A stretch of 11,018 nucleotides of DNA from Gammaproteobacteria bacterium RIFCSPHIGHO2_12_FULL_37_14. GTDB lineage: Bacteria > Pseudomonadota > Gammaproteobacteria > DSM-16500. The stretch covers positions 935 to 11,952 of the forward strand of contig MGXV01000094.1 in assembly GCA_001801485.1 (NCBI GenBank), given 5' to 3'. This document shows, piece after piece, positions 1-10,869 of the stretch. The translations under genes and the position numbers were made by a program. The notes under the pieces were generated by a model. It was not told the origin of the DNA, ran no database searches, and saw only the letters and a list, made by a program, of their open reading frames with translations. The first letter of the stretch is position 1. Every line of letters starts with the position of its first letter.

Positions 1-687
1 TTTGAAACATTTAATAAACAACATGAAGTCACTTTTTTAGGCACTGCGCTTCCTTATCGTCGTCGTTTACTGTGTGAGCTCGCCAAATTTCAGATACCGT
101 TCACGGTTTACGGAAAATACTGGGATACAGACAAAACGAATACATGCATAAGGTCATTTGAAAAAACAGCGTTGGATATTGTACGTTACGGTTGGCCGCG
201 TGTCAGAACTGAGGGAATTAAGAAAGCATTGGAAAGCTTATCTTCACGCATTTTTACAAACACCCATGATAATGATAGGGTCATTCCTCCCGAATATATA
301 AAGGGGCAACTAGAAACACATGAATTACCTTTATTATTTCAGCAATCCAAAATTAATATTGGTTTAACACGGTATGCAGAAAACGATCCAAATAAAGTAG
401 GCAGATGTCAAATGAAGTTACGCGATTTTGAAGTACCGATGGCTGGTGGATTTTACTTGGTAGAAAAATCGCCAGGGTATGATGCGGCTTTTATTGATGG
501 CGAGGAAGTGGTTATGTGGCAAACAGTGCAGGAATTGATAGAAAAAATACAGTATTATTTAGCTCATGAAGATGAGCGTAGAGCAATCGCATTAAAAGGG
601 CAGAAAAGGGCAATCAGTGAGCATACGTGGCAACATCGATTTAATACATTATTCCAGGCATTAGGCATTGATTATGCGCATTCGTAG
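1..687 (+). CDS. CgeB-like glycosyltransferase, 3' part only
   Basis: The frame is already open at base 1 and runs 228 codons to TAG at 685-687, so the true start lies left of the window. The internal TTG at 172 is not the start. The C-terminal half resembles the CgeB/Glyco_trans_1_2 type of GT-B glycosyltransferase: a conserved K-x-R-D-F-E-x-P-M-A-G-G-F segment (codons about 140-152), then a Y-D-x-A-F-x-D-G-E-E-V stretch, a helix with YYLAHEDERRAIA, and a terminal HTWQHRF motif. In this family the segment around F-E-x-P helps bind the sugar nucleotide. The likely role is cytoplasmic transfer of a sugar onto a lipid-linked or surface glycan; donor and acceptor cannot be read from the sequence. 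The stop overlaps the next gene by 14 bases, suggesting coupled translation. Family call fairly sure, specificity unknown. Confidence 0.8.
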   Translation, partial: FETFNKQHEVTFLGTALPYRRRLLCELAKFQIPFTVYGKYWDTDKTNTCIRSFEKTALDIVRYGWPRVRTEGIKKALESLSSRIFTNTHDNDRVIPPEYIKGQLETHELPLLFQQSKINIGLTRYAENDPNKVGRCQMKLRDFEVPMAGGFYLVEKSPGYDAAFIDGEEVVMWQTVQELIEKIQYYLAHEDERRAIALKGQKRAISEHTWQHRFNTLFQALGIDYAHS

Positions 688-1924
688 ACGCTCATTTTTT
701 GAAATTTTGTTACCACTCTTATTTGTGTTTTTTCTTGGCGCAGGCACAACATTTATTAATCCACTACAACCAAAATTGCTGAAGTGGCTCATATTTTTTG
801 TATTATTCGGATATCTTTTTTTAAACAAAAAATTATTAATTTATATTAATAGAAGCTGGCTTGTATTGTTAGCATTATATCTCATATGGTGCCTATCAAC
901 GAATTTTTGGTCTGAAGTCCCTGTAATGAGTGTTATTAAGAGCATACCGTTTATTTTAATAATTATAACAATGCTATCAGCAGGTAGCCTTTGGGTTGTT
1001 CGCTTCGGATATGAAAAAGCCACTGATTTCTCATTTTTAATTATGTTAATTGCAATCATATCCAATTTGGCAGGATTGAATTCCAATGCATACATGGCTG
1101 CTGGTATTGAAATATCTGGTGGATTGTCTGGCAATGCAAATAATTTTGGGTTTTTGCAAGTCATAGCATGTCCAATTATTCTTTGGTATTTATATAAAAC
1201 ATGGGGAAATAAATGGTATTCATTGCTTTGGGGATTGTTGTTTCTGATTGATATGCGCGGACTGCTTATGTCTTATTCAAGAAGTGCAACTGCAGCATTT
1301 CTTTGTATCATTTATTTTTTTCTAATCAGCTTATCTGGTTATAAAAAAATGGTGGTCATTTTTTCAGCGTTATTTGCCATGCTTATAAGTATTATATTCA
1401 TTCCTATGGTGATGGTGACATTTGAAAAAAATATCTTGGCACATGTACTAAAAGGAACGATTGAAAGGAGTATTGACACCCAGACAATGCTTTTCTCCCG
1501 AAGTAAGCTTTGGGAAAAATCCTATCAGCAAGCAGTGCAAGGCGGATTGTCAGGAGGGGGTTTTTACGTGACAATAGGTGACCATGATTTTAGTCTTTTG
1601 CATCCGGAACGTTATGGCAGAGAAAAGGGAAATTCCCAATTAGCTGTGGTAGAAGAAACGGGCATTATTGGATTTTCTTTATATTTATTAATAATCATCA
1701 GCTTTTATTGGTATGCTTTGAAATACTATCGATCTTTGAAACCTATTAGAAAAAAAGTAGCAATGGGTCTTGTTTTAGGCGTGATTTCCGGTTTGTTAGC
1801 TGAATCTCTTGTAGAGGCTTGGTGGGATTCGCTTGCCCCAGAAGTGATTTGCTTTTGGGCTTTTATAGGTGTTGTTTTTGGTATGATTTACTTAGAAAGA
1901 AGAGAGCGCTTAGTAAAGGATTAA
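674..1924 (+). CDS. O-antigen ligase/polymerase family membrane protein (Wzy/WaaL-like)
   Basis: A protein of 416 residues from ATG 674; a TTG two codons upstream is a less likely start. It is highly hydrophobic, with about ten to twelve membrane segments broken by one large polar loop at roughly residues 250-335, the layout of the Wzy_C/O-antigen ligase superfamily. Supporting motifs are a glycine/asparagine stretch (GLSGNANNFGFLQ, about 151-163), SYSRSATAAF (about 200-209, like the S-x-S-R motif of the family), and a GGLSGGGFY turn followed by EETGIIG after the loop. Such proteins polymerise lipid-linked repeat units or ligate polymer to lipid A-core at the periplasmic face. Sequence alone does not separate the two. 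The usual H-N before the final motif reads G-N here (about 319-320), with histidines a little earlier in the loop. It overlaps the upstream glycosyltransferase and the deacetylase follows 4 bases later, so it sits inside the operon. Confidence 0.85.
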   Translation: MRIRRRSFFEILLPLLFVFFLGAGTTFINPLQPKLLKWLIFFVLFGYLFLNKKLLIYINRSWLVLLALYLIWCLSTNFWSEVPVMSVIKSIPFILIIITMLSAGSLWVVRFGYEKATDFSFLIMLIAIISNLAGLNSNAYMAAGIEISGGLSGNANNFGFLQVIACPIILWYLYKTWGNKWYSLLWGLLFLIDMRGLLMSYSRSATAAFLCIIYFFLISLSGYKKMVVIFSALFAMLISIIFIPMVMVTFEKNILAHVLKGTIERSIDTQTMLFSRSKLWEKSYQQAVQGGLSGGGFYVTIGDHDFSLLHPERYGREKGNSQLAVVEETGIIGFSLYLLIIISFYWYALKYYRSLKPIRKKVAMGLVLGVISGLLAESLVEAWWDSLAPEVICFWAFIGVVFGMIYLERRERLVKD

Positions 1925-1928
1925 CATA

Positions 1929-2750
1929 ATGAGATCATTGGCATGGAAGCGACGAATTGCGCAATACTATTCACCATTTATAAAAACTGATTTGTCTCGA
2001 AAAATCATCCTGATTTATCATGCCATTGGTTATAGTCCCTGGGCAATATCTGAACCCACATTTAGGCAGCAAATGGCATGGCTTTCTCAACACTGCCATA
2101 TTGTTACCCTAAATAACTTATTAAATCCGCATAATGAGTACAACAAAACAGCAGTCGCAATTTCCTTTGATGATGGGTACGCCTGTATACACGATATTGT
2201 TGCGCCAATTCTACAAGATTATCGTGCCTCAGCAACCGTTTACCTTAACACAGGATGGATTAGCGAAGACAGCATACATAAAAATTCTGATGCAAATTTA
2301 GGCCATTATCCGAATGAGGCATTTCTAACCTGGCATGAGGTAAAAACTTTAGCCAAAAATGGCTGGGAAATTGGATCGCATGGTGTAGATCATATTGATT
2401 TAACTGCTCGCGCAGAAAATATCATTCAAGATGAATTAATTCACTCGAAAAATATGATTGAAACAATACTAAAAAACCCTTGTAAACATTTTGCATACAC
2501 TTGGGGTAGGTATCATTCCTTGCTGCAGAAAAAAGTTAAAGAGGCAGGATATTGTAGCGCTGTGTCTGGTATACACGGCACAGTTACATGTAAAAGCGAT
2601 TTATGCGCACTACCAAGGATCAATGTTGCACTAGAGTATGAAATGCATGATTTCATTGCCATGGTAAAAGGTCACTGGGATTATTTAAGGTATATACAGT
2701 TATTGAAGAGAAAATCTAATAGGACTCAAGCTTATGAAGTTAGCAATTAA
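1929..2750 (+). CDS. Polysaccharide deacetylase (NodB/CE4 family)
   Basis: A protein of 273 residues. ATG 1929 is preceded by AAGGA inside the end of the previous gene. The CE4 metal-dependent de-N-acetylase signature is present: motif 1 S-F-D-D-G (F80, D81 as likely base, D82 as metal ligand) and motif 2 S-H-G-V-D-H (H151 and H155 as metal ligands). Motif 3 is altered to F-A-Y-T-W-G-R-Y (188-195), where a proline is usual. The enzyme would remove acetyl groups from N-acetyl sugars or ester-linked positions. The N terminus is basic and polar with no signal peptide or membrane anchor, so it probably acts in the cytoplasm on a lipid-linked intermediate, unlike secreted peptidoglycan deacetylases. 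Its last 17 bases overlap the next glycosyltransferase, pointing to joint expression. Family secure; substrate not known. Confidence 0.9.
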   Translation: MRSLAWKRRIAQYYSPFIKTDLSRKIILIYHAIGYSPWAISEPTFRQQMAWLSQHCHIVTLNNLLNPHNEYNKTAVAISFDDGYACIHDIVAPILQDYRASATVYLNTGWISEDSIHKNSDANLGHYPNEAFLTWHEVKTLAKNGWEIGSHGVDHIDLTARAENIIQDELIHSKNMIETILKNPCKHFAYTWGRYHSLLQKKVKEAGYCSAVSGIHGTVTCKSDLCALPRINVALEYEMHDFIAMVKGHWDYLRYIQLLKRKSNRTQAYEVSN

Positions 2751-3873
2751 TGCGTTTAATATTCAAATTGGTGGCGGTGTGACACATTTGGTGGAGTTGT
2801 TGTCTGCTGCTGATCCCTACAGATATGGTTTTACTGAAGTTGCTATTTGGTCAAACGAGAAAACATTGGCATTATTGCCAGATCGCCCATGGCTTAAAAA
2901 AATAAGTATAAAAGCGCTTAATAAAAAGCTATGGCATAAATTATGGTGGAATTTCCGTTATTTTTCTAAAGAAGTCAAACAATACGATATTTCCTATGTG
3001 CCTGGTGGAACTTACCTTGGTCGGCATTCTCCCTTTGTTAATTTTTTTCAAAATGCATTGCCATTTGAACCAAAAGAAAAAAGACGATTTTTGTTAACAT
3101 CGCCTGCCTATTATATAAAGTTGAATTTATTGCGTCTCACACAAGGGTTAACATTTAAAAAAGCAACGGCAGTGATATTTCCGTCACACTACTTAGAATC
3201 ACTTGTATTTCAAAATATTAGGCATACAAATTGCCGATTTTCTCGTGTCATTCCGCATGGAATAAATCCAATTTTTTTTAATAAGCCTATGGATGAAAAT
3301 CAGTTACTTGCCCATAAAAAAGAAATTCGATTGATATATGTATCAAGAGTCGATTTTTATAAACATCAGTGGCATGTTGTTGAGGCGGCTGGCTTGCTGC
3401 GCAAAATGAATATTCCAGTACAATTAGATTTAACGGGGTATGTTGGTAGCAAGAAGGCATTAAAAAAGCTAAAACATTCGATGAATCGAGTTGATCCAAC
3501 AGGCGAATTTATTCGGTATCATGGTCATTTGCCTTATACAGATTTACCAAAGTGGTATAAAGAAATTGACATTTTTATATTTGCATCTAGTTGCGAGAGC
3601 ATTTCTAGTATTTTATTAGAAGCAATGGCGTCGGGATTAGCCATCGCTTGCTCCAATATATCTGTAACACATGAAATATTAAAGGATGCTGGTATTTATT
3701 TTGATCCGGAAAATCCAGAAGATATTAAAAATGCAGTTCATCAATTAATTAATGATACGAAACTAAGAGATTCATGCCGAAAAAAAGCGTACCTGCATGC
3801 ACAACAGTATCGCTGGAATCATTGTGCAGATCAAACCTTTTCCTTTTTAAGCGACATAGCGAAATTGCAATAA
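2734..3873 (+). CDS. Glycosyltransferase family 4 (GT-B fold)
   Basis: A protein of 379 residues starting at ATG 2734, with AGGA about ten bases upstream; it overlaps the deacetylase by 17 bases. The N-terminal domain opens with a glycine-rich GGGVTHLVELL loop (about 13-23), as in many GT4 enzymes. The C-terminal nucleotide-sugar domain has V-I-P-H-G-I-N-P (about 172-179), L-I-Y-V-S-R-V (about 200-206), and the family E-x7-E motif at E288 and E296 in CESISSILLEAMASGLAI. It would be a retaining transferase working at the cytoplasmic face of the inner membrane to extend the lipid-linked oligosaccharide. GDP-mannose from the nearby manC is a possible donor, but the sequence does not fix this. 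The MurJ-like gene follows after 11 bases. Confidence 0.9.
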   Translation: MKLAINAFNIQIGGGVTHLVELLSAADPYRYGFTEVAIWSNEKTLALLPDRPWLKKISIKALNKKLWHKLWWNFRYFSKEVKQYDISYVPGGTYLGRHSPFVNFFQNALPFEPKEKRRFLLTSPAYYIKLNLLRLTQGLTFKKATAVIFPSHYLESLVFQNIRHTNCRFSRVIPHGINPIFFNKPMDENQLLAHKKEIRLIYVSRVDFYKHQWHVVEAAGLLRKMNIPVQLDLTGYVGSKKALKKLKHSMNRVDPTGEFIRYHGHLPYTDLPKWYKEIDIFIFASSCESISSILLEAMASGLAIACSNISVTHEILKDAGIYFDPENPEDIKNAVHQLINDTKLRDSCRKKAYLHAQQYRWNHCADQTFSFLSDIAKLQ

Positions 3874-3878
3874 AGGGG
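3873..3878 (+). promoter_or_regulatory. Shine-Dalgarno site that sets the MurJ-like start
   Basis: AAGGGG lies directly after the preceding stop, six bases before ATG 3885. It selects ATG 3885 over the in-frame ATG at 3774 inside the glycosyltransferase gene and over ATG 3918 downstream. No equally good site precedes either alternative. Confidence 0.65.
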
Positions 3879-3884
3879 TTGTCA

Positions 3885-5468
3885 ATGGGTGCTGATGTTG
3901 TTGTTGAAAAGCCATTCATGAAAAGAGAGAATTTACTTGGTTCGACGGTATTAGTTTCTATTAACAGAATTATTTCTTTGAGTTTTGGCTATACAAGAGA
4001 CATGATTTGGGCCTGTGTATTTGGCTCCAGTTTAGCATTCGATGCATTTGTTATCGCATTTCATCTCCCATCATTTTTTAGTTATATCATCTCGGAAGCT
4101 GGTATCAGACAAGTATTTATACCACTGTTGTCGGAAAAACAAATTCAATCTACTGATGCTGATGTCAAAACATTTATTTCCGACATTAGTCTTATATTGC
4201 TTATTGTATTAGTTGTTGTTGTGATTATTTCGATTGGGATGGCGCCAGTCATTATAAAAATGTTTGCACCAGGATTATGCAAGGTTGAAAAAAGCTTTAT
4301 TCTTGCAGTTTCACTATTTCGTATTATGGCAGTCGGTATATTATTTACCTCACTGTCAGAGCTGTTTGGCGCAATTTTAAACACATTTGGCAGTTATGGC
4401 ATCCCATCATCCACACCAATCATATTCAATGTGGTTGCCATATTGTCGACAAGTTATTTTACAGATTATTTTAAGATCCCAATTTACGCACTGGCCTTTG
4501 GTATTTTGGCCAGTGGTATTTTTCAGGGTTTAATACAGATTCCATTTTTGAAAAGAAAAAATTTATTAGTAAAACCGAGCCCGCGTATTAATGTGGTGCT
4601 AATAAGAAAAGTATTTAAAATGGTTATACCTACTCTAGCCGGCGTTTCTATTATGCAACTGGGTGTGTTAATTGATTTCATATTTTCGTCGTACTTACCT
4701 AAGGGGAGTATTACCTGGTTGTATTATTCCACGAGATTAATGGAGATTCCTGTTGGTATTTTTTCTATTGCAATTGCTGCGGTAGCACTTCCCAATTTGG
4801 GGCGATACTATGCAAAGAAAGATATGGACTCATATAACCAGGTGTTAGATGGGTCAATTCGTAACACGCTTTTTTTTGGCATGCCTGCAAGTGCTGGGTT
4901 ATTTGTATTATCTGGCCCAATTATTGCGACATTATTTAAACACGGAATTTTTAGTAGTAATGATGTCATTATGGCAACATCAAGTACAAAAGCATTTGCA
5001 ATTGGCATTTGTGGATTTATGTTAATAAAAGCCTGCGCAGTTGCTTCGTATGCAAGACAGGATGCAAAACTTCCAGCAAAAATAGCTGCTATAGGCTTAC
5101 TATGTAATATTGTTTTTAATTTTATTTTTTTTAAGCAATTGATGCATGCTGGTTTGGCGCTAGCCACATCTCTCGCGGGTATTGTTAATGCTGGAATATT
5201 ATTCTCGTGCCTGATCACAAAAAAATATTATCAACCAGAGGCCGGATTTTGGCTGTATACTATAAAGTTAATGATAGCTACGCTTACAATGTTGCTTGTT
5301 TTGCTTCACATGACGCCAACGTTAAGTGCTTGGTTAAATGCGGGGACTATATGGCGTATATTGCATTTGTCAATGCTTATTTTGTTGGGTGCAATGACCT
5401 ACATTTTGAGTATGGATTTATTGGGATGTCGAATAAAAAAATTCTCATTAGGTCTAAAAATGGAATAA
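3885..5468 (+). CDS. murJ: MurJ/MviN-family lipid-linked glycan flippase, divergent
   Basis: A protein of 527 residues from ATG 3885. It is strongly hydrophobic with roughly 14 membrane segments, as in MurJ (MOP superfamily), whose E. coli member (about 511 residues) flips lipid II for peptidoglycan synthesis. Family hallmarks are G-Y-T-R-D-M near the N terminus (R38, D39), F-D-A-F with F-H-L-P (53-62), F-I-P-L-L-S-E, G-A-I-L-N, T-R-L-M-E-I-P (283-289), A-L-P-N-L and Y-A-R-Q-D. Compared from memory with E. coli MurJ at a constant offset of 14, R24 (R38), D39 (D53) and R270 (R284) are kept. R18 has become L32, R52 has become S66 and D269 has become T283. It lies last in a glycan operon, 11 bases after a glycosyltransferase, so it may flip a lipid-linked surface glycan instead of lipid II. 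If the genome has no other murJ it could still be the housekeeping enzyme. Confidence 0.9.
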   Translation: MGADVVVEKPFMKRENLLGSTVLVSINRIISLSFGYTRDMIWACVFGSSLAFDAFVIAFHLPSFFSYIISEAGIRQVFIPLLSEKQIQSTDADVKTFISDISLILLIVLVVVVIISIGMAPVIIKMFAPGLCKVEKSFILAVSLFRIMAVGILFTSLSELFGAILNTFGSYGIPSSTPIIFNVVAILSTSYFTDYFKIPIYALAFGILASGIFQGLIQIPFLKRKNLLVKPSPRINVVLIRKVFKMVIPTLAGVSIMQLGVLIDFIFSSYLPKGSITWLYYSTRLMEIPVGIFSIAIAAVALPNLGRYYAKKDMDSYNQVLDGSIRNTLFFGMPASAGLFVLSGPIIATLFKHGIFSSNDVIMATSSTKAFAIGICGFMLIKACAVASYARQDAKLPAKIAAIGLLCNIVFNFIFFKQLMHAGLALATSLAGIVNAGILFSCLITKKYYQPEAGFWLYTIKLMIATLTMLLVLLHMTPTLSAWLNAGTIWRILHLSMLILLGAMTYILSMDLLGCRIKKFSLGLKME

Positions 5469-5569: not shown

Positions 5570-6988
5570 CTATTGTTCATTTAGTGTTCTTCCATAAGAA
5601 TCTTCAAAACGCACAATATCATCTTCTCCCAAATAACTTCCTAATTGTACCTCGATAATTTCAATATTATTTTCTGTCAAATTAGCAAGGCGATGTTTAA
5701 TTGTCATAGGAATATAGGTGGACTCATTTTCGAAAACCATAAAAACATCTTCCCCTCGTGTTACTTGAGCTATACCATTAACAACAATCCAATGTTCAGA
5801 ACGATGATAATGCATTTGCAGTGACAAACAGCAATTTGGTTTTATCACTATGCGTTTTACTTGAAAACACTTTCCTTGATATAAGATCTCATAAAATCCC
5901 CAAGGCCGACAAACCTTTCTATGTAAATCAATCTCTGACCGCTTGTTTTGTTTAAGGCGAGATACAATATTTTTTATTGACTGACTTTTGTCTTTACTCA
6001 CAACTAACACTGCATCAGATGTTTCTACTATAATATGATCACTGACACCTACCGCAGCTACCATACGACTTTCCGCACGTAAATAGGAATTTTTTACATC
6101 CTCAATTATTATATCTCCTTGTAAAGTGTTCCCATTTTGATCTATTTTTTGAACATCACATAAAGCTTTCCATGAGCCAATGTCACTCCAAAACGTATCA
6201 AGCGGTATCAATATTGCTTTATTAGTTTTTTCCATGACTGCGTAATCAATAGAATTACTAGGAGTGGCTGCGAAAAGGGTCTTATCTAACCTAATAAAGT
6301 CTAAATCTTTGGTGATTGATGACATGGTTCGTTGACATGTCTTTAAAATAGTAGGGGCATATCGTTTTAATTCGGATAAATATTGAGAAGCTTTAAACAT
6401 AAACATACCGCTATTCCAATAATATTGGCCAGAATTAAGATATAATTTTGCCATTTCAATATCAGGTTTCTCAATGAATTTCTCGACAATGTATGCACGG
6501 TCATTTTTCAAACTTTGGGAGGCCTTTATATAACCATATCCTGTTTCAGGTATGGTTGGTATAACCCCAAAGGTAATAAGCCAACCGTCTTGAGCATAAG
6601 CTATTGCGCTTTCCACTAATTTTGCATAATGTTGACTATCCTCAATTAGATGGTCAGCTGGCAAAATCAATAAAATGGGATCTTGTTCTTTCAAATATAA
6701 AGCAGCAATTGCTGTAGCAGGAGCCGTATTTTTTCCTATCGGTTCAAGAATAATCTTTGCATTTTTAATATTTATGCTTTGCAATTGCTCTGCAACAAAA
6801 AAACGATGTTCTTGATTGCAAATTACTATGGGTGGAGAAACGTCAGGGATAGATTGTGTACGTAATATAGTTTCTTGTAATAAAGTTTTATTACTTACTA
6901 AAGGTAATAATTGTTTTGGGTAAGCACTACGTGATAATGGCCATAAACGACTTCCAGTGCCGCCCGCTAAAATAATTGGAACAATCAT
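5570..6988 (-). CDS. manC: Mannose-1-phosphate guanylyltransferase / mannose-6-phosphate isomerase
   Basis: A protein of 472 residues from the ATG at 6988-6986, preceded by AGG nine bases upstream; a TTG three codons earlier is possible but less likely. Domain 1 (about 1-280) is the GDP-mannose pyrophosphorylase, with L-A-G-G-T-G-S-R-L-W-P-L at 7-18, P-K-Q at 24-26, L-P-A-D-H at 109-113, G-Y-G-Y-I at 150-154 and F-I-E-K-P at 171-175. Domain 2 (about 320-472) is the type II phosphomannose isomerase cupin, with Q-M-H-Y-H-R-S-E-H-W (H393, H395, H399 as likely metal ligands) and the typical C-terminal G-S-Y-L-G-E-D-D-I-V-R-F-E-D. It converts fructose-6-phosphate to mannose-6-phosphate and mannose-1-phosphate plus GTP to GDP-mannose in the cytoplasm. 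No phosphomannomutase is present in the window. Length and domains are complete. It lies 230 bases downstream of wzx on the same strand, so it may have its own promoter. Confidence 0.96.
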   Translation of the reverse strand: MIVPIILAGGTGSRLWPLSRSAYPKQLLPLVSNKTLLQETILRTQSIPDVSPPIVICNQEHRFFVAEQLQSINIKNAKIILEPIGKNTAPATAIAALYLKEQDPILLILPADHLIEDSQHYAKLVESAIAYAQDGWLITFGVIPTIPETGYGYIKASQSLKNDRAYIVEKFIEKPDIEMAKLYLNSGQYYWNSGMFMFKASQYLSELKRYAPTILKTCQRTMSSITKDLDFIRLDKTLFAATPSNSIDYAVMEKTNKAILIPLDTFWSDIGSWKALCDVQKIDQNGNTLQGDIIIEDVKNSYLRAESRMVAAVGVSDHIIVETSDAVLVVSKDKSQSIKNIVSRLKQNKRSEIDLHRKVCRPWGFYEILYQGKCFQVKRIVIKPNCCLSLQMHYHRSEHWIVVNGIAQVTRGEDVFMVFENESTYIPMTIKHRLANLTENNIEIIEVQLGSYLGEDDIVRFEDSYGRTLNEQ

Positions 6989-7091
6989 TATTGCCAACCT
7001 AGCAAAATCTTAATGTTGTAGATAGAATAAATATAACCATAATATAGAATTCATCTAATAAAATATATTTAAAATAAAACATAGAATACAT

Positions 7092-7218: not shown

Positions 7219-8493
7219 TCAAGCATATGCATTTACCTGCACAGGTTTTTCTTTCAGATAAAGTATCGAAAAAATAATCATGGTAACCCAATATAACGAG
7301 TAGCTCACCGCAAAGGCCATGGCACAACCAATCAATCCTTCATAGTGAACAAATATTACGGTAAGTAATACATGAGTTGCGGTGAAAGTCAGTTCCATCG
7401 CAAGACAGCCCTTCACCATGGCGCGAGCAACCAGAATATTATTAAGTATCCATGTATTTGCTCTTGCGAAATCACCCAATAGCTGGAATTTAAATAATGG
7501 TAAAACTGGCAAAAAACTTGTACTGTACATTAAAACAATGATTTTTTCCTTCAACAGAAAAACTAGTACAACTGCGATCAAAATAAGTGGCGATAAGTAA
7601 TAGTGACTCTTAATCACTTCAGTGCGCAACGCTTGCCTTGTTTTTAAGGATGAAAATTTTGGGATAAAATAAAAACCGAAGACCATTGTCATCAATGTCA
7701 AATAACTATTTGAAAGCCGCGTAATGGCTTGCCAATATCCCGCATCAGTCCAAGAAAGCGTATCAACTAAATATCGATTAATGATCATTAATGCAATTGG
7801 TTCGACTAATGCGGCCGAAAATGGAATACATGAATAGGTTAATAATCGTTTTATTCCAGCGAAATTTATCTTAGACAAAAATAACTGAATAGAAAACCAA
7901 CGAGACTTAATAACCAAATAAGTCGTTAAAAGACCAACAAAGGTTTGATTTAATGCAAAGCCAATTAAACCACCAATCAAACCAAAATATGTAATCAAAC
8001 CAGCTGTTGTTAAAAAATTACAGACTGTATTAGCTATCATGCAAATCGCGTATTTTTTTGCGTCCATTTCTGCATTTAGTATAGATAGACCGAGATTATT
8101 TAGAATAAATAACCCGATACCTACGCCAACTAAAATAATCATTCCCGGGTGCACTGTTGATTGAAAGACAGAATGAGAAATTATCCTGCTAAAAAACACT
8201 AACAAAATAAGTGCGATAACAAAAAAAGCGATATTGATCGCGAAAGCATTACTTAATATCCATGCCTTTTTTTCGAAATTTTCTTTATACTCTGAAACAT
8301 ATTTTACAACGCCTTCATTAATACCCGTCGGTATTGCAACACGTGATACTTGAATAAAGTTTTGAAATTGTTCAATAATCGCAATGCCTTTTGGGCCAAC
8401 ACTCACTGCAATGATTTTCCACATCACATACGTTAGAATCCCCTTAACTAAGGTAATAACGCTCATCAAGAAGGAGATTTTTAAAAAAGTCAT
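7219..8493 (-). CDS. wzx: O-antigen flippase, WzxE-like (MOP/PST family)
   Basis: A protein of 424 residues. The start is the ATG at 8493-8491, because AAGGA (8504-8500) stands six bases before it; the TTG at 8499 abuts that site and is too close. About 12 membrane segments are visible. Resemblance to WzxE is clear in the N-terminal T-L-V-K-G (about 15-19), V-S-V-G-P-K-G-I-A (about 31-39), N-E-G-V-V-K-Y-V-S-E-Y (about 58-68), L-S-W-T-D-A-G-Y-W-Q-A (middle) and F-Q-L-L-G-D-F-A-R (C-terminal third). Such proteins flip undecaprenyl-pyrophosphate-linked repeat units from the cytoplasmic to the periplasmic face, in exchange for protons in the best studied cases. It lies between the orphan frame and manC on the - strand. 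It is complete, so the window has two intact flippases of different families. Confidence 0.93.
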   Translation of the reverse strand: MTFLKISFLMSVITLVKGILTYVMWKIIAVSVGPKGIAIIEQFQNFIQVSRVAIPTGINEGVVKYVSEYKENFEKKAWILSNAFAINIAFFVIALILLVFFSRIISHSVFQSTVHPGMIILVGVGIGLFILNNLGLSILNAEMDAKKYAICMIANTVCNFLTTAGLITYFGLIGGLIGFALNQTFVGLLTTYLVIKSRWFSIQLFLSKINFAGIKRLLTYSCIPFSAALVEPIALMIINRYLVDTLSWTDAGYWQAITRLSNSYLTLMTMVFGFYFIPKFSSLKTRQALRTEVIKSHYYLSPLILIAVVLVFLLKEKIIVLMYSTSFLPVLPLFKFQLLGDFARANTWILNNILVARAMVKGCLAMELTFTATHVLLTVIFVHYEGLIGCAMAFAVSYSLYWVTMIIFSILYLKEKPVQVNAYA

Positions 8494-8517
8494 GAACAAT
8501 CCTTGTAATTTTATTTA

Positions 8518-8905: not shown

Positions 8906-9889
8906 ATGGCAAAAGTACTTGTCACAGGTGCAACAGGATTTATTGGCCGATTTTTGGTTTCCCATCTATTAAAGCAATCTGTTTCTGTTCGCATACTGGT
9001 AAGAAATCATCTTCGCGATGATTTTCCTGCAACTGTTCAACAATTTATAGGTGATTTGGCAGAGCCAAATGGACTAATTGATGCCATGAAAGGGATTGAT
9101 ATTGTCTTTCATTTAGCAGGTTATGCGCATGCATGGAAAGATAATCAAGAAAGTGCAGCAAAACATCATCAAACAAATTTAATCGGTACGAAAAATTGCT
9201 TAGAGGCGAGTGTCCTTGTTGGAGTAAAAAAATTTATTTTTTTTAGTACGATCAAAGCGGTTGGTGATTCAGATCATTGTATCGATGAAAAATGGAATGC
9301 GCCACCTGATACACCGTATGGCAAAGCGAAAAGAGCAGCAGAAGCGCAGATGTTAGAAAACGCTTTGGCAAACGATATGCATGTTTGTGTATTGAGATTG
9401 GCACTGGTTTATGGTCCACATCTCAAGGGTAATTTATATCAGATGTTACGTGCAATTGATAAAGGTTATTTTTTACCGGTCCCACCCGTAAAAAATCATC
9501 ATTCACTCATCAGTGTTTACGATGTTTGTCAAGCGGCATGGCTCGCAGCCAATTGTGAGGTAGCAAATGGAAAAATTTATTTTTTGGCAGAGCAGAAAAG
9601 CTATTCAACTTATCAAATTTATTCTTTAATGCGAAAAGCGCTAGGCTATTCAACCCCTACTTGGTCAATCCCATTATGGGTTTTTAGGCAATTAGCAATG
9701 ATAGGAGATCACGCTGAACGTTTGATTAAAAGTCGTTTACCTTTTAACAGCCAAGCATATCACAAATTATTCGGCTCATCGTATTGTAGTGCGAATGCTA
9801 TTCAACATGAATTGGGATTTTGTACGCAATATGCACTAGCGGACTTATTACCTCAAATTATTACAACTTATCGAGCAGGTAAAACATGA
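8906..9889 (+). CDS. WbpV-like NAD-dependent sugar-nucleotide epimerase/reductase (extended SDR)
   Basis: A protein of 327 residues from ATG 8906, with GGATGAG six bases upstream. It has a Rossmann fold with T-G-A-T-G-F-I-G (G8, G11, G14), D-I-V-F-H-L-A-G (about 65-72), the S-T-I-K-A-V-G segment with catalytic S114/T115, and Y138-x3-K142. The downstream pattern Y-G-P-x2-K-G-N, L-P-V-P-P-V and H-S-L-I-S-V-Y-D-V resembles WbpV/WreQ enzymes. These reduce the 4-keto group of UDP-2-acetamido-2,6-dideoxy-hexulose to UDP-D-QuiNAc or UDP-D-FucNAc. UDP-glucose/GlcNAc 4-epimerase is the main alternative. The pairing with a WbpL-like transferase (4-base ATGA overlap) favours the WbpV reading. The 4,6-dehydratase (WbpM type) that would make its substrate is not in the window. 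No convincing promoter is visible upstream, where the manC relic lies. Confidence 0.9.
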   Translation: MAKVLVTGATGFIGRFLVSHLLKQSVSVRILVRNHLRDDFPATVQQFIGDLAEPNGLIDAMKGIDIVFHLAGYAHAWKDNQESAAKHHQTNLIGTKNCLEASVLVGVKKFIFFSTIKAVGDSDHCIDEKWNAPPDTPYGKAKRAAEAQMLENALANDMHVCVLRLALVYGPHLKGNLYQMLRAIDKGYFLPVPPVKNHHSLISVYDVCQAAWLAANCEVANGKIYFLAEQKSYSTYQIYSLMRKALGYSTPTWSIPLWVFRQLAMIGDHAERLIKSRLPFNSQAYHKLFGSSYCSANAIQHELGFCTQYALADLLPQIITTYRAGKT

Positions 9890-10869
9890 TATCAATGTGG
9901 ATCCTGCTTCCGATGATTTTTTTTATTTCTGTCATATTTACGGGATTAATTCGGCTTTATGTCATTCATAAAAACATGTTCGATATTCCAAATAACCGCA
10001 GTTCGCATGATGAGCCAACTCCACGAGGAGGAGGGGTATCGATTGTTTTGTTATTTACTTGCTCGACAATATGGCTATATTTGCAAAATCTAATTTCTTT
10101 ATCTCTTTTTTATGCTTTAAATGGGGGTTTCATCATCGCCATCATTGGGTGGTTAGATGATATCTTTATTATTCACCCACTATGGCGTGGTGTTGTGCAC
10201 ATATTGGTTGCCATATGGGCTGTCTATTGGATAGGTGGATTAGCCAATTTTCCGTTCAGCATAGGCTATCCTTTAGCAATGATCAGTATCATTTGGTGTA
10301 TCAATTTGTATAATTTTATGGATGGCATTGATGGTTTGGCTGCAACAGAAGGTTTATGTATGAGTATAGTGGTCGCATTTATATTAAGTTTATATGGTTT
10401 CTCAAACATGAGTTTGCTTTGTTTGTTGCTAGCCGCTTCCATTGCAGGATTTTTGGTGTGGAATTGGCCGCCAGCAAAAATATTTATGGGGGACGTCGGA
10501 AGTGGGTATTTAGGTTACGTGTTTGCTGTCCTTGCCCTCTCAACTGCCAATACACATCTGTTACCACTCACATTTTGGATGACAATTTCTGCTCTATTTT
10601 TATGTGACGCGACATGGACAGTTTTGTTTCGATTATGGAGAGGTGAACGATTGTATGAAGCGCATCGAGAACATGCATATCAACGTTTGGTGCAAAATGG
10701 GATAAGCCATTTTAACGTCACAATCAGTGCAGCGATGATTAATATATTTGTATTATTCCCTATTGCAATCCTTATGCTTTATTATCCTTCGTTACAATTT
10801 CAATTATTGAGTTTTTTATTGGCGATGTTATTTGTGGTATGGAATTCAATAAGAAAAACAAGAGCATAA
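9886..10869 (+). CDS. Polyprenyl-phosphate sugar-1-phosphate transferase (WbpL/WecA type)
   Basis: A protein of 327 residues from ATG 9886, with AGG seven bases upstream and a start that overlaps the previous stop (ATGA). It has about ten to eleven membrane segments. The PF00953 family motifs are complete: D-I-P-N-N-R-S-S-H with T-P-R-G-G-G (33-50), the Mg-binding L-D-D at 90-92, N-L-Y-N-F-M-D-G-I-D-G (140-150), F-M-G-D-V-G-S-G-Y (200-208), and the cytoplasmic H-R-E-H-A-Y-Q-R-L (260-268). It transfers a sugar-1-phosphate from a UDP-sugar to undecaprenyl phosphate and so starts the repeat unit on the cytoplasmic face. By its WbpV-like partner, the sugar is probably QuiNAc or FucNAc; GlcNAc, as for WecA, is the alternative. 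It is complete and ends just where base composition changes. Confidence 0.93.
   Translation: MISMWILLPMIFFISVIFTGLIRLYVIHKNMFDIPNNRSSHDEPTPRGGGVSIVLLFTCSTIWLYLQNLISLSLFYALNGGFIIAIIGWLDDIFIIHPLWRGVVHILVAIWAVYWIGGLANFPFSIGYPLAMISIIWCINLYNFMDGIDGLAATEGLCMSIVVAFILSLYGFSNMSLLCLLLAASIAGFLVWNWPPAKIFMGDVGSGYLGYVFAVLALSTANTHLLPLTFWMTISALFLCDATWTVLFRLWRGERLYEAHREHAYQRLVQNGISHFNVTISAAMINIFVLFPIAILMLYYPSLQFQLLSFLLAMLFVVWNSIRKTRA

Follow-up and report, generated by a model that had tools for sequence, protein, structure and literature searches.

Introduction

The canonical MurJ proteins carry arginines in a central cavity, and several of these residues have been characterised in more than one organism. 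In the published model, as presented in PMC4790310, R18 and R24 in TM1, R52 in TM2 and R270 in TM8 of E. coli MurJ line this cavity. R18 is reported to be essential in the MurJ proteins of E. coli, T. africanus and B. cenocepacia (PMC9973255, PMC4790310), and R24 and R270 count among the essential cavity arginines of the MurJs described there as well. According to the review PMC4790310, E. coli MurJ needs R52, whereas the B. cenocepacia protein can dispense with it. Since one true MurJ can do without R52, its loss taken by itself proves nothing and is weaker evidence than a loss of R18. In T. africanus MurJ the triad R24-D25-R255, of which R255 corresponds to E. coli R270, is described as interacting with pyrophosphate, and the same source mentions that the cavity arginines of Wzx/WzxE are proposed to bind pyrophosphate (PMC11706664). 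Wzx/WzxE proteins flip an undecaprenyl pyrophosphate (Und-PP)-linked unit for the Wzy-type pathway, a role like the one proposed below for a MurJ-like protein. The substrate selection of MOP flippases is described as unclear in PMC8561386.

A MurJ that belongs to a glycan locus has been considered before. Of the two MurJ homologues of C. difficile, both reported to be essential, MurJ1 (MviN) is encoded in the PS-II locus and has been proposed as the flippase of the lipid-linked PS-II unit (PMC5065235, PMC12548448). The likeness to the case reported here is that of a second MurJ homologue in a surface-glycan locus together with manC and glycosyltransferases; the organism, however, is very distant. 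PapL of P. fluorescens is said to resemble MurJ at only 17% identity (PMC7716237). A search of titles and abstract openings, with most subscription journals outside its reach, found no subfamily with the cavity signature described below. PslK is not used here as a precedent for a glycan-locus MurJ: a literature search gave no paper linking PslK with MurJ, and PslK was absent from the 20 papers listed of 89 in another.

Here we describe a MurJ-like protein from a gammaproteobacterial surface-glycan locus. With a probability of roughly 0.72 we regard it as a MurJ-type MOP flippase for an Und-PP-linked surface-glycan unit, acting in the manner of a Wzx for the genes at 1-5468. This substrate is proposed on the basis of the surrounding genes alone.

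A MurJ-like gene in a surface-glycan gene set

The stretch of DNA that was analysed, here called the window, comprises 11,018 nt of contig MGXV01000094.1 (assembly GCA_001801485.1, positions 935 to 11,952 of the forward strand). It holds nine main genes:

1..687, plus strand: glycosyltransferase (Pfam PF13524), truncated by the window start
668..1924, plus strand: Wzy_C-like membrane protein of the O-antigen ligase/polymerase type (Pfam 27.5 bits, below the cut-off of 31.7)
1929..2750, plus strand: polysaccharide deacetylase (PF01522)
2734..3873, plus strand: glycosyltransferase (PF00534), ending 11 bases ahead of the MurJ-like ATG
3885..5468, plus strand: MurJ-like flippase of the R14 subfamily, 527 aa (516 aa from the alternative start at 3918)
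5570..6997, minus strand: mannose-1-phosphate guanylyltransferase/mannose-6-phosphate isomerase of the ManC type (TIGR01479 676 bits, cut-off 373)
7219..8499, minus strand: WzxE-like flippase, the second flippase of the window (NF011679 179 bits, below the cut-off of 325)
8906..9889, plus strand: NAD-dependent epimerase/dehydratase (PF01370)
9886..10869, plus strand: WecA/MraY-family sugar-phosphate transferase (PF00953 114.5 bits; TIGR02380 72.9 bits, below cut-off)

The five plus-strand genes in 1-5468 overlap by 17-20 bases or are separated by gaps of 4 and 11 bases, an operon-like spacing that suggests a single operon. The WecA/MraY-family transferase likely makes an Und-PP-sugar primer. 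The WzxE-like protein matches the WzxE structure 9g95 (PDB) with 134.8 bits.

The MurJ-like protein scores 351 bits against PF03023 (cut-off 27.4), its sole Pfam match at E 0.001, and 346 bits against TIGR01695 (cut-off 235.6). It matches E. coli MurJ over the full length (327 bits, 34% identity), and the MurJ fold is predicted to be complete, including the C-terminal helices. Three relatives (P0002-P0004) are listed from an ATG aligned to 3918, so that the true start may lie 11 codons downstream of 3885. Residue numbers of the window protein are counted here from the ATG at 3885; counted from 3918 all of them would be 11 lower.

Cavity residues of the MurJ-like protein

A MAFFT alignment of the window protein with E. 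coli MurJ has a constant offset of 14. The cavity positions, all on the plus strand, read as follows:

3966..3968, plus strand: R28, at E. coli position 14 (T there), an arginine gain common to the subfamily
3978..3980, plus strand: L32, at E. coli R18, lost
3996..4001, plus strand: R38-D39, at E. coli R24-D25, retained
4080..4085, plus strand: S66-Y67, at E. coli R52-R53, both lost
4731..4736, plus strand: T283-R284, at E. coli D269 (lost) and R270 (retained)

Of the cavity arginines R18, R24 and R270 the window protein thus has the latter two, with L at 18, and R52 is replaced by S66. E. coli D39 is retained as D53, and E57 is likewise kept. Further changes against E. coli are K46 to H60, N49 to S63 and, in TM2, E-G-A to E-A-G; like R53 to Y67, they had gone unmentioned in the sequence-only reading. 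When compared with the canonical MurJ proteins (E. coli; PDB 9ukv/6cc4/7wag), the subfamily to which the window protein belongs shares the fold and R24, D25, D39, E57 and R270. It differs in the replacement of R18, R52, R53 and D269, in the presence of R14, in the TM2 change from EGA to EAG and in a gene position within a glycan locus instead of next to ribF.

The sequence-only reading had given R24 and R270 as kept and L32, S66 and T283 as the counterparts of R18, R52 and D269 at an offset of 14, and the alignment returns exactly these pairs. R28 also lies where that reading had put it, one helical turn before L32, which is E. coli position 14 and four residues before 18. The two lost arginines had further been called essential in E. 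coli; of these, R52 is not essential in every MurJ, as B. cenocepacia illustrates.

A subfamily with a common signature

Among the best 120 homologues listed, 19 are subfamily members (P0001-P0012, P0014, P0016-P0021). For residue counts we used 18 distinct full-length members. The copy of a related genome, G002, was added to this set, and P0001 (identical to the window protein), the copy of a further genome, G005 (identical to P0010), P0012 (without letters at 14-25) and P0009 were left out. Membership was picked by R14 together with S, T or G at 52, and both features are therefore 18/18 by selection. An alternative pick by H46 and S49 returned the same rows plus P0012, with no exception and with R14 wherever a letter is present.

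R18 is absent from all 18 members (S in 13, L in 4, C in 1). Position 52 is S in 12, T in five and G in one, and position 53 is Y in 17 and F in one. D269 is likewise lost throughout (T 11, S 5, A 2), and H46 and S49 are found in 18/18. R24, D25 and D39 are retained by every member, and R270 by all except P0014, which has K. The comparison set consists of 189 non-subfamily sequences with a MurJ-profile score of at least 500 and letters at both sites, a non-random sample of best query hits and genome-survey hits. All 189 have R18 and all have R52; 188 have T14 and none has R14. A pattern common to 18 members, with R14 in 0/189 other close MurJs, is inherited and not a one-off. R28 is supported as a plausible substitute for the lost charge. 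The subfamily itself scores 589-737 against the MurJ profile. Among 19 remote non-subfamily sequences (profile score 50-500) R18 is present in 11 and R52 in seven; remote paralogues thus often lack these arginines, and their absence is notable in close MurJs only.

Over the whole protein, charges found in 80% or more of the canonical sequences and in no more than 20% of those of the subfamily are lost at the basic positions 18, 46, 52 and 53 and at a single acidic position, 269. Charged or histidine residues gained (at least 80% of the subfamily, at most 10% of canonical sequences) are R14, H46, K211 and K447, of which positions 211 and 447 are located away from the cavity positions R18/R24/R52/R270. 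Uncharged positions also differ between the two groups, several of them within 131-141. The canonical set for this comparison was chosen by R18/R24/R52/R270, and for residue frequencies the counts from the 189 sequences are therefore preferred.

Two observations concern single sequences or positions. P0009 (323 aa, from a 1,335-base contig, profile score 458) is 83% identical to the subfamily over 61% of the query, yet has the canonical TM8 motif DRLIYFPL; it looks chimeric, through assembly or through recombination between two MurJ copies. Thirteen canonical-type sequences (e.g. P0030, P0035) have G in place of R53 and keep R18, R24, R52 and R270, so R53 is not universal in MurJ.

A canonical murJ beside ribF in related genomes

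A contig scan with the window found a single related contig, that of G001, the metagenome-assembled genome (MAG) Gammaproteobacteria bacterium RIFCSPHIGHO2_12_FULL_39_24. Its subfamily copy is 76% identical to the window protein and lies amid glycan genes; a second, canonical copy adjoins ribF, which was recognised as FAD_syn plus Flavokinase. At E 1e-100 both MurJ types are present in three of 36 genomes of this order (G001, G002 and G005), and four of the 36 gave no MurJ match at this E value. The canonical murJ of G002 and G005 lies between obgE and ribF. The canonical copies of all three genomes keep R18, R24, R52, R53, D269 and R270. The second, canonical murJ whose presence in the genome had been put forward as a check is found in these three related genomes. 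The ribF neighbourhood belongs to the canonical copy in 3/3 genomes and to the subfamily copy in 0/4 loci.

In wider samples of 369 genomes of the class (E 1e-163) and 398 of the phylum (E 1e-160), G001 alone yielded a subfamily member; G064 and G135, two further hits in the class sample, have canonical MurJ. G002 and G005 gave no hit here and had thus not been drawn, which marks the samples as partial, and more diverged members could fall under these thresholds. Two or three PF03023 matches occur in 33/369 gammaproteobacterial genomes, some of them pieces of one gene; 32 of the 33 were searched again and 20 regions taken. The loci L092 and L093 (G037, G304) hold MurJ frames of more than 700 aa with PF03023 in two pieces about 25 codons apart.

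These data bear on the reading that the subfamily is a second lipid II flippase, be it condition-specific, a backup or one for a modified peptidoglycan precursor, whose placement in a glycan locus would be incidental. The protein is a MurJ by TIGR01695 score and by fold, a S. pyogenes homologue with 22% identity is reported to replace E. coli MurJ (PMC4990322), and R52 is dispensable in B. cenocepacia MurJ. Yet R18, reported as essential in three MurJs, is lost in all 18 members, three genomes keep a canonical copy while the odd one lies away from ribF in four loci, and these loci contain glycosyltransferase, Wzy_C-like, Wzc, deacetylase or other sugar genes. We consider this reading rather unlikely.

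Origin of the subfamily

A tree built from 87 proteins places every one of the 19 subfamily rows in a single clade. A tree of 44 proteins, with 14 subfamily rows and the ten signature columns removed, has the subfamily monophyletic at 100/100, and sets it apart together with P0013 and P0015, again at 100/100. These two sister MurJs, of which P0015 is named as a Gammaproteobacteria bacterium CG11 MAG, are 46-49% identical to the window protein and differ from the subfamily in keeping R18, R52 and R53 and in having E at 269. The cavity changes hence came later than the split from P0013/P0015. A search for the gene context of P0015 reached one genome and found nothing.

Duplication of the hosts' own murJ was rejected with the signature columns out (74.8 log units, p-AU 1.8e-06). 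Because a grouping with the hosts' MurJs is rejected, the subfamily is either an old paralogue or an acquisition from another lineage; the long branch leading to it (0.84) makes some long-branch pull possible. The idea of a MurJ recruited for a glycan pathway is supported as far as the second MurJ in a glycan locus and its remodelled cavity are concerned, but the protein does not derive from the host lineage's own MurJ. Between the same genomes, subfamily copies are 45-53% and canonical copies 70-80% identical; the lower value for the subfamily would be accounted for by exchange of glycan loci or by a faster rate of evolution. P0119, named as the MurJ of a Coxiella endosymbiont, groups in the 87-protein tree with a genome of G001's order, which may for this reason be the order of Coxiella.

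Gene context and other flippases

Surface-glycan genes surround the subfamily gene in 4/4 loci seen (window, G001, G002, G005). The window and G002 have in common the MurJ-like gene, a Wzy_C-like gene (46% identical) and the deacetylase (50%); the Wzy_C-like homologue of G002 scores 35.5 bits, above the cut-off, and adjoins the MurJ-like gene. The 5.8-kb contig of G005 shares with the window the MurJ-like gene and the deacetylase (48%). The G002 locus further contains a Wzc-type co-polymerase, GT2 and GT1-group glycosyltransferases and an ABC exporter. That of G001 has a Wzi-type capsule protein, a UDP-GlcNAc 2-epimerase and a WzxE-like wzx, and about 40 kb of G001 gave no match at E 1e-6 to the Wzy_C-like protein or the deacetylase of the window. 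Components of a Wzy-type locus are thus present in the window (glycosyltransferases, a WecA-like transferase and a Wzy_C-like protein below cut-off) and in G002 (Wzy_C and Wzc). A gene with the GNAT domain PF13480 (L117, 687-1607, plus strand) lies directly 3' of the G001 MurJ-like gene; its product is akin to FemAB proteins.

Two MOP flippases of different families are found in the window (the second at 7219-8499, minus strand) and in G001 (L117, 17759-19021, plus strand), and the two WzxE-like proteins are 60% identical. The ABC exporter of G002 (L035, 4683-6452, minus strand) matches a PglK structure (PDB) over residues 5-570 with 226 bits and is MsbA-like too; it scores below the equivalog cut-offs of both PglK and MsbA, and the Wzc-type gene sits between it and the MurJ-like gene. 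No intact PF01943 or PF13440 Wzx was found in the G002 genome at E 0.001. A stretch at G002:C19:14628-14969 matches PF01943 with 19.8 bits, below the cut-off, and has five internal stops; it is possibly a wzx gene remnant. The sole PF13440 match in G002 is the canonical MurJ. PF13440 is reached above its cut-off by the G005 subfamily member and by the canonical MurJs of G001, G002 and G005, and hence has no power to discriminate Wzx from MurJ. G005 has a PF13440 Wzx candidate on a contig separate from that of the MurJ-like gene. The G002 and G005 genomes contain no match to the WzxE family NF011679 at E 1e-12.

With other flippases nearby in the window, G001 and G002, and a Wzx candidate on another contig in G005, another protein could flip the unit. 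The MurJ-like protein might then be a degenerate or accessory MurJ that does not flip by itself, with transport left to the WzxE-like protein (window, G001) or the ABC exporter (G002), and other flippase candidates in 3/4 loci would fit this. The window gene, however, has no internal stop, and comparison with its 76%-identical relative gives dN 0.141 and dS 0.902 (dN/dS about 0.16), values that indicate purifying selection. An alignment of 17 members has 98 invariant columns, and decay is not expected to give one replacement set in 18 diverse proteins. Random decay is disfavoured by the dN/dS and by this conservation, and we judge a degenerate or accessory role improbable. Alternatively, the MurJ-like protein and a Wzx could both flip a single surface-glycan repeat unit, side by side or redundantly. 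In the window and in G001 the two genes do occur close together in the same region, and Wzk is mentioned as a flippase of relaxed specificity (PMC4990322). The pair is nevertheless not obligate, since G002 and G005 have the MurJ-like gene and no WzxE-family match, the PF13440 candidate of G005 being elsewhere. Sharing of a unit appears very improbable to us.

Discussion

We favour a MurJ-type flippase that would have left peptidoglycan synthesis and would carry an Und-PP-linked repeat unit of a surface polysaccharide across the inner membrane. In its favour stand the subfamily signature, the canonical murJ next to ribF in three genomes, the glycan genes in all four loci, the Wzc-type gene in the G002 locus together with the lack of an intact PF01943 or PF13440 Wzx in that genome at E 0.001, and the purifying selection. 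The R24-D25-R270 triad is kept by the subfamily, which is consistent with an Und-PP-linked substrate, and it may still hold the pyrophosphate. R18 is lost and an arginine stands one helical turn from its place, so the charge may have moved, and R14 could have taken over from R18. The other losses might remove contacts that suit the headgroup of lipid II and make room for a different sugar headgroup, and the cavity would in this way be refitted for a sugar headgroup without peptide. The WecA-like transferase of the window could supply the Und-PP-linked substrate. The Wzy_C-like protein would then polymerise the unit, and the deacetylase perhaps de-N-acetylates a sugar. It counts against a glycan flippase that the protein still passes the TIGR01695 equivalog cut-off. 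On the same side are the absence of counterparts of the Wzy_C-like protein and the deacetylase at E 1e-6 from the region of G001, the nearest relative, and the score of the window's Wzy_C match below the Pfam cut-off.

A more specific version, which we put forward tentatively and think less probable than its opposite, is that of a natural specificity switch. The pyrophosphate clamp would be kept, the arginine moved from 18 to 14 and positions R52, R53 and D269 cleared, with peptide-free Und-PP-glycans as the substrate. If this were true, few cavity positions would encode substrate choice. At 34% identity to E. coli MurJ, with the pyrophosphate triad intact and a few cavity charges exchanged, the clade offers a compact and testable set of positions for substrate selection. 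Finally, TIGR01695, an equivalog for murein synthesis, accepts the subfamily, and automatic annotation may thus give a glycan flippase a function in peptidoglycan synthesis.
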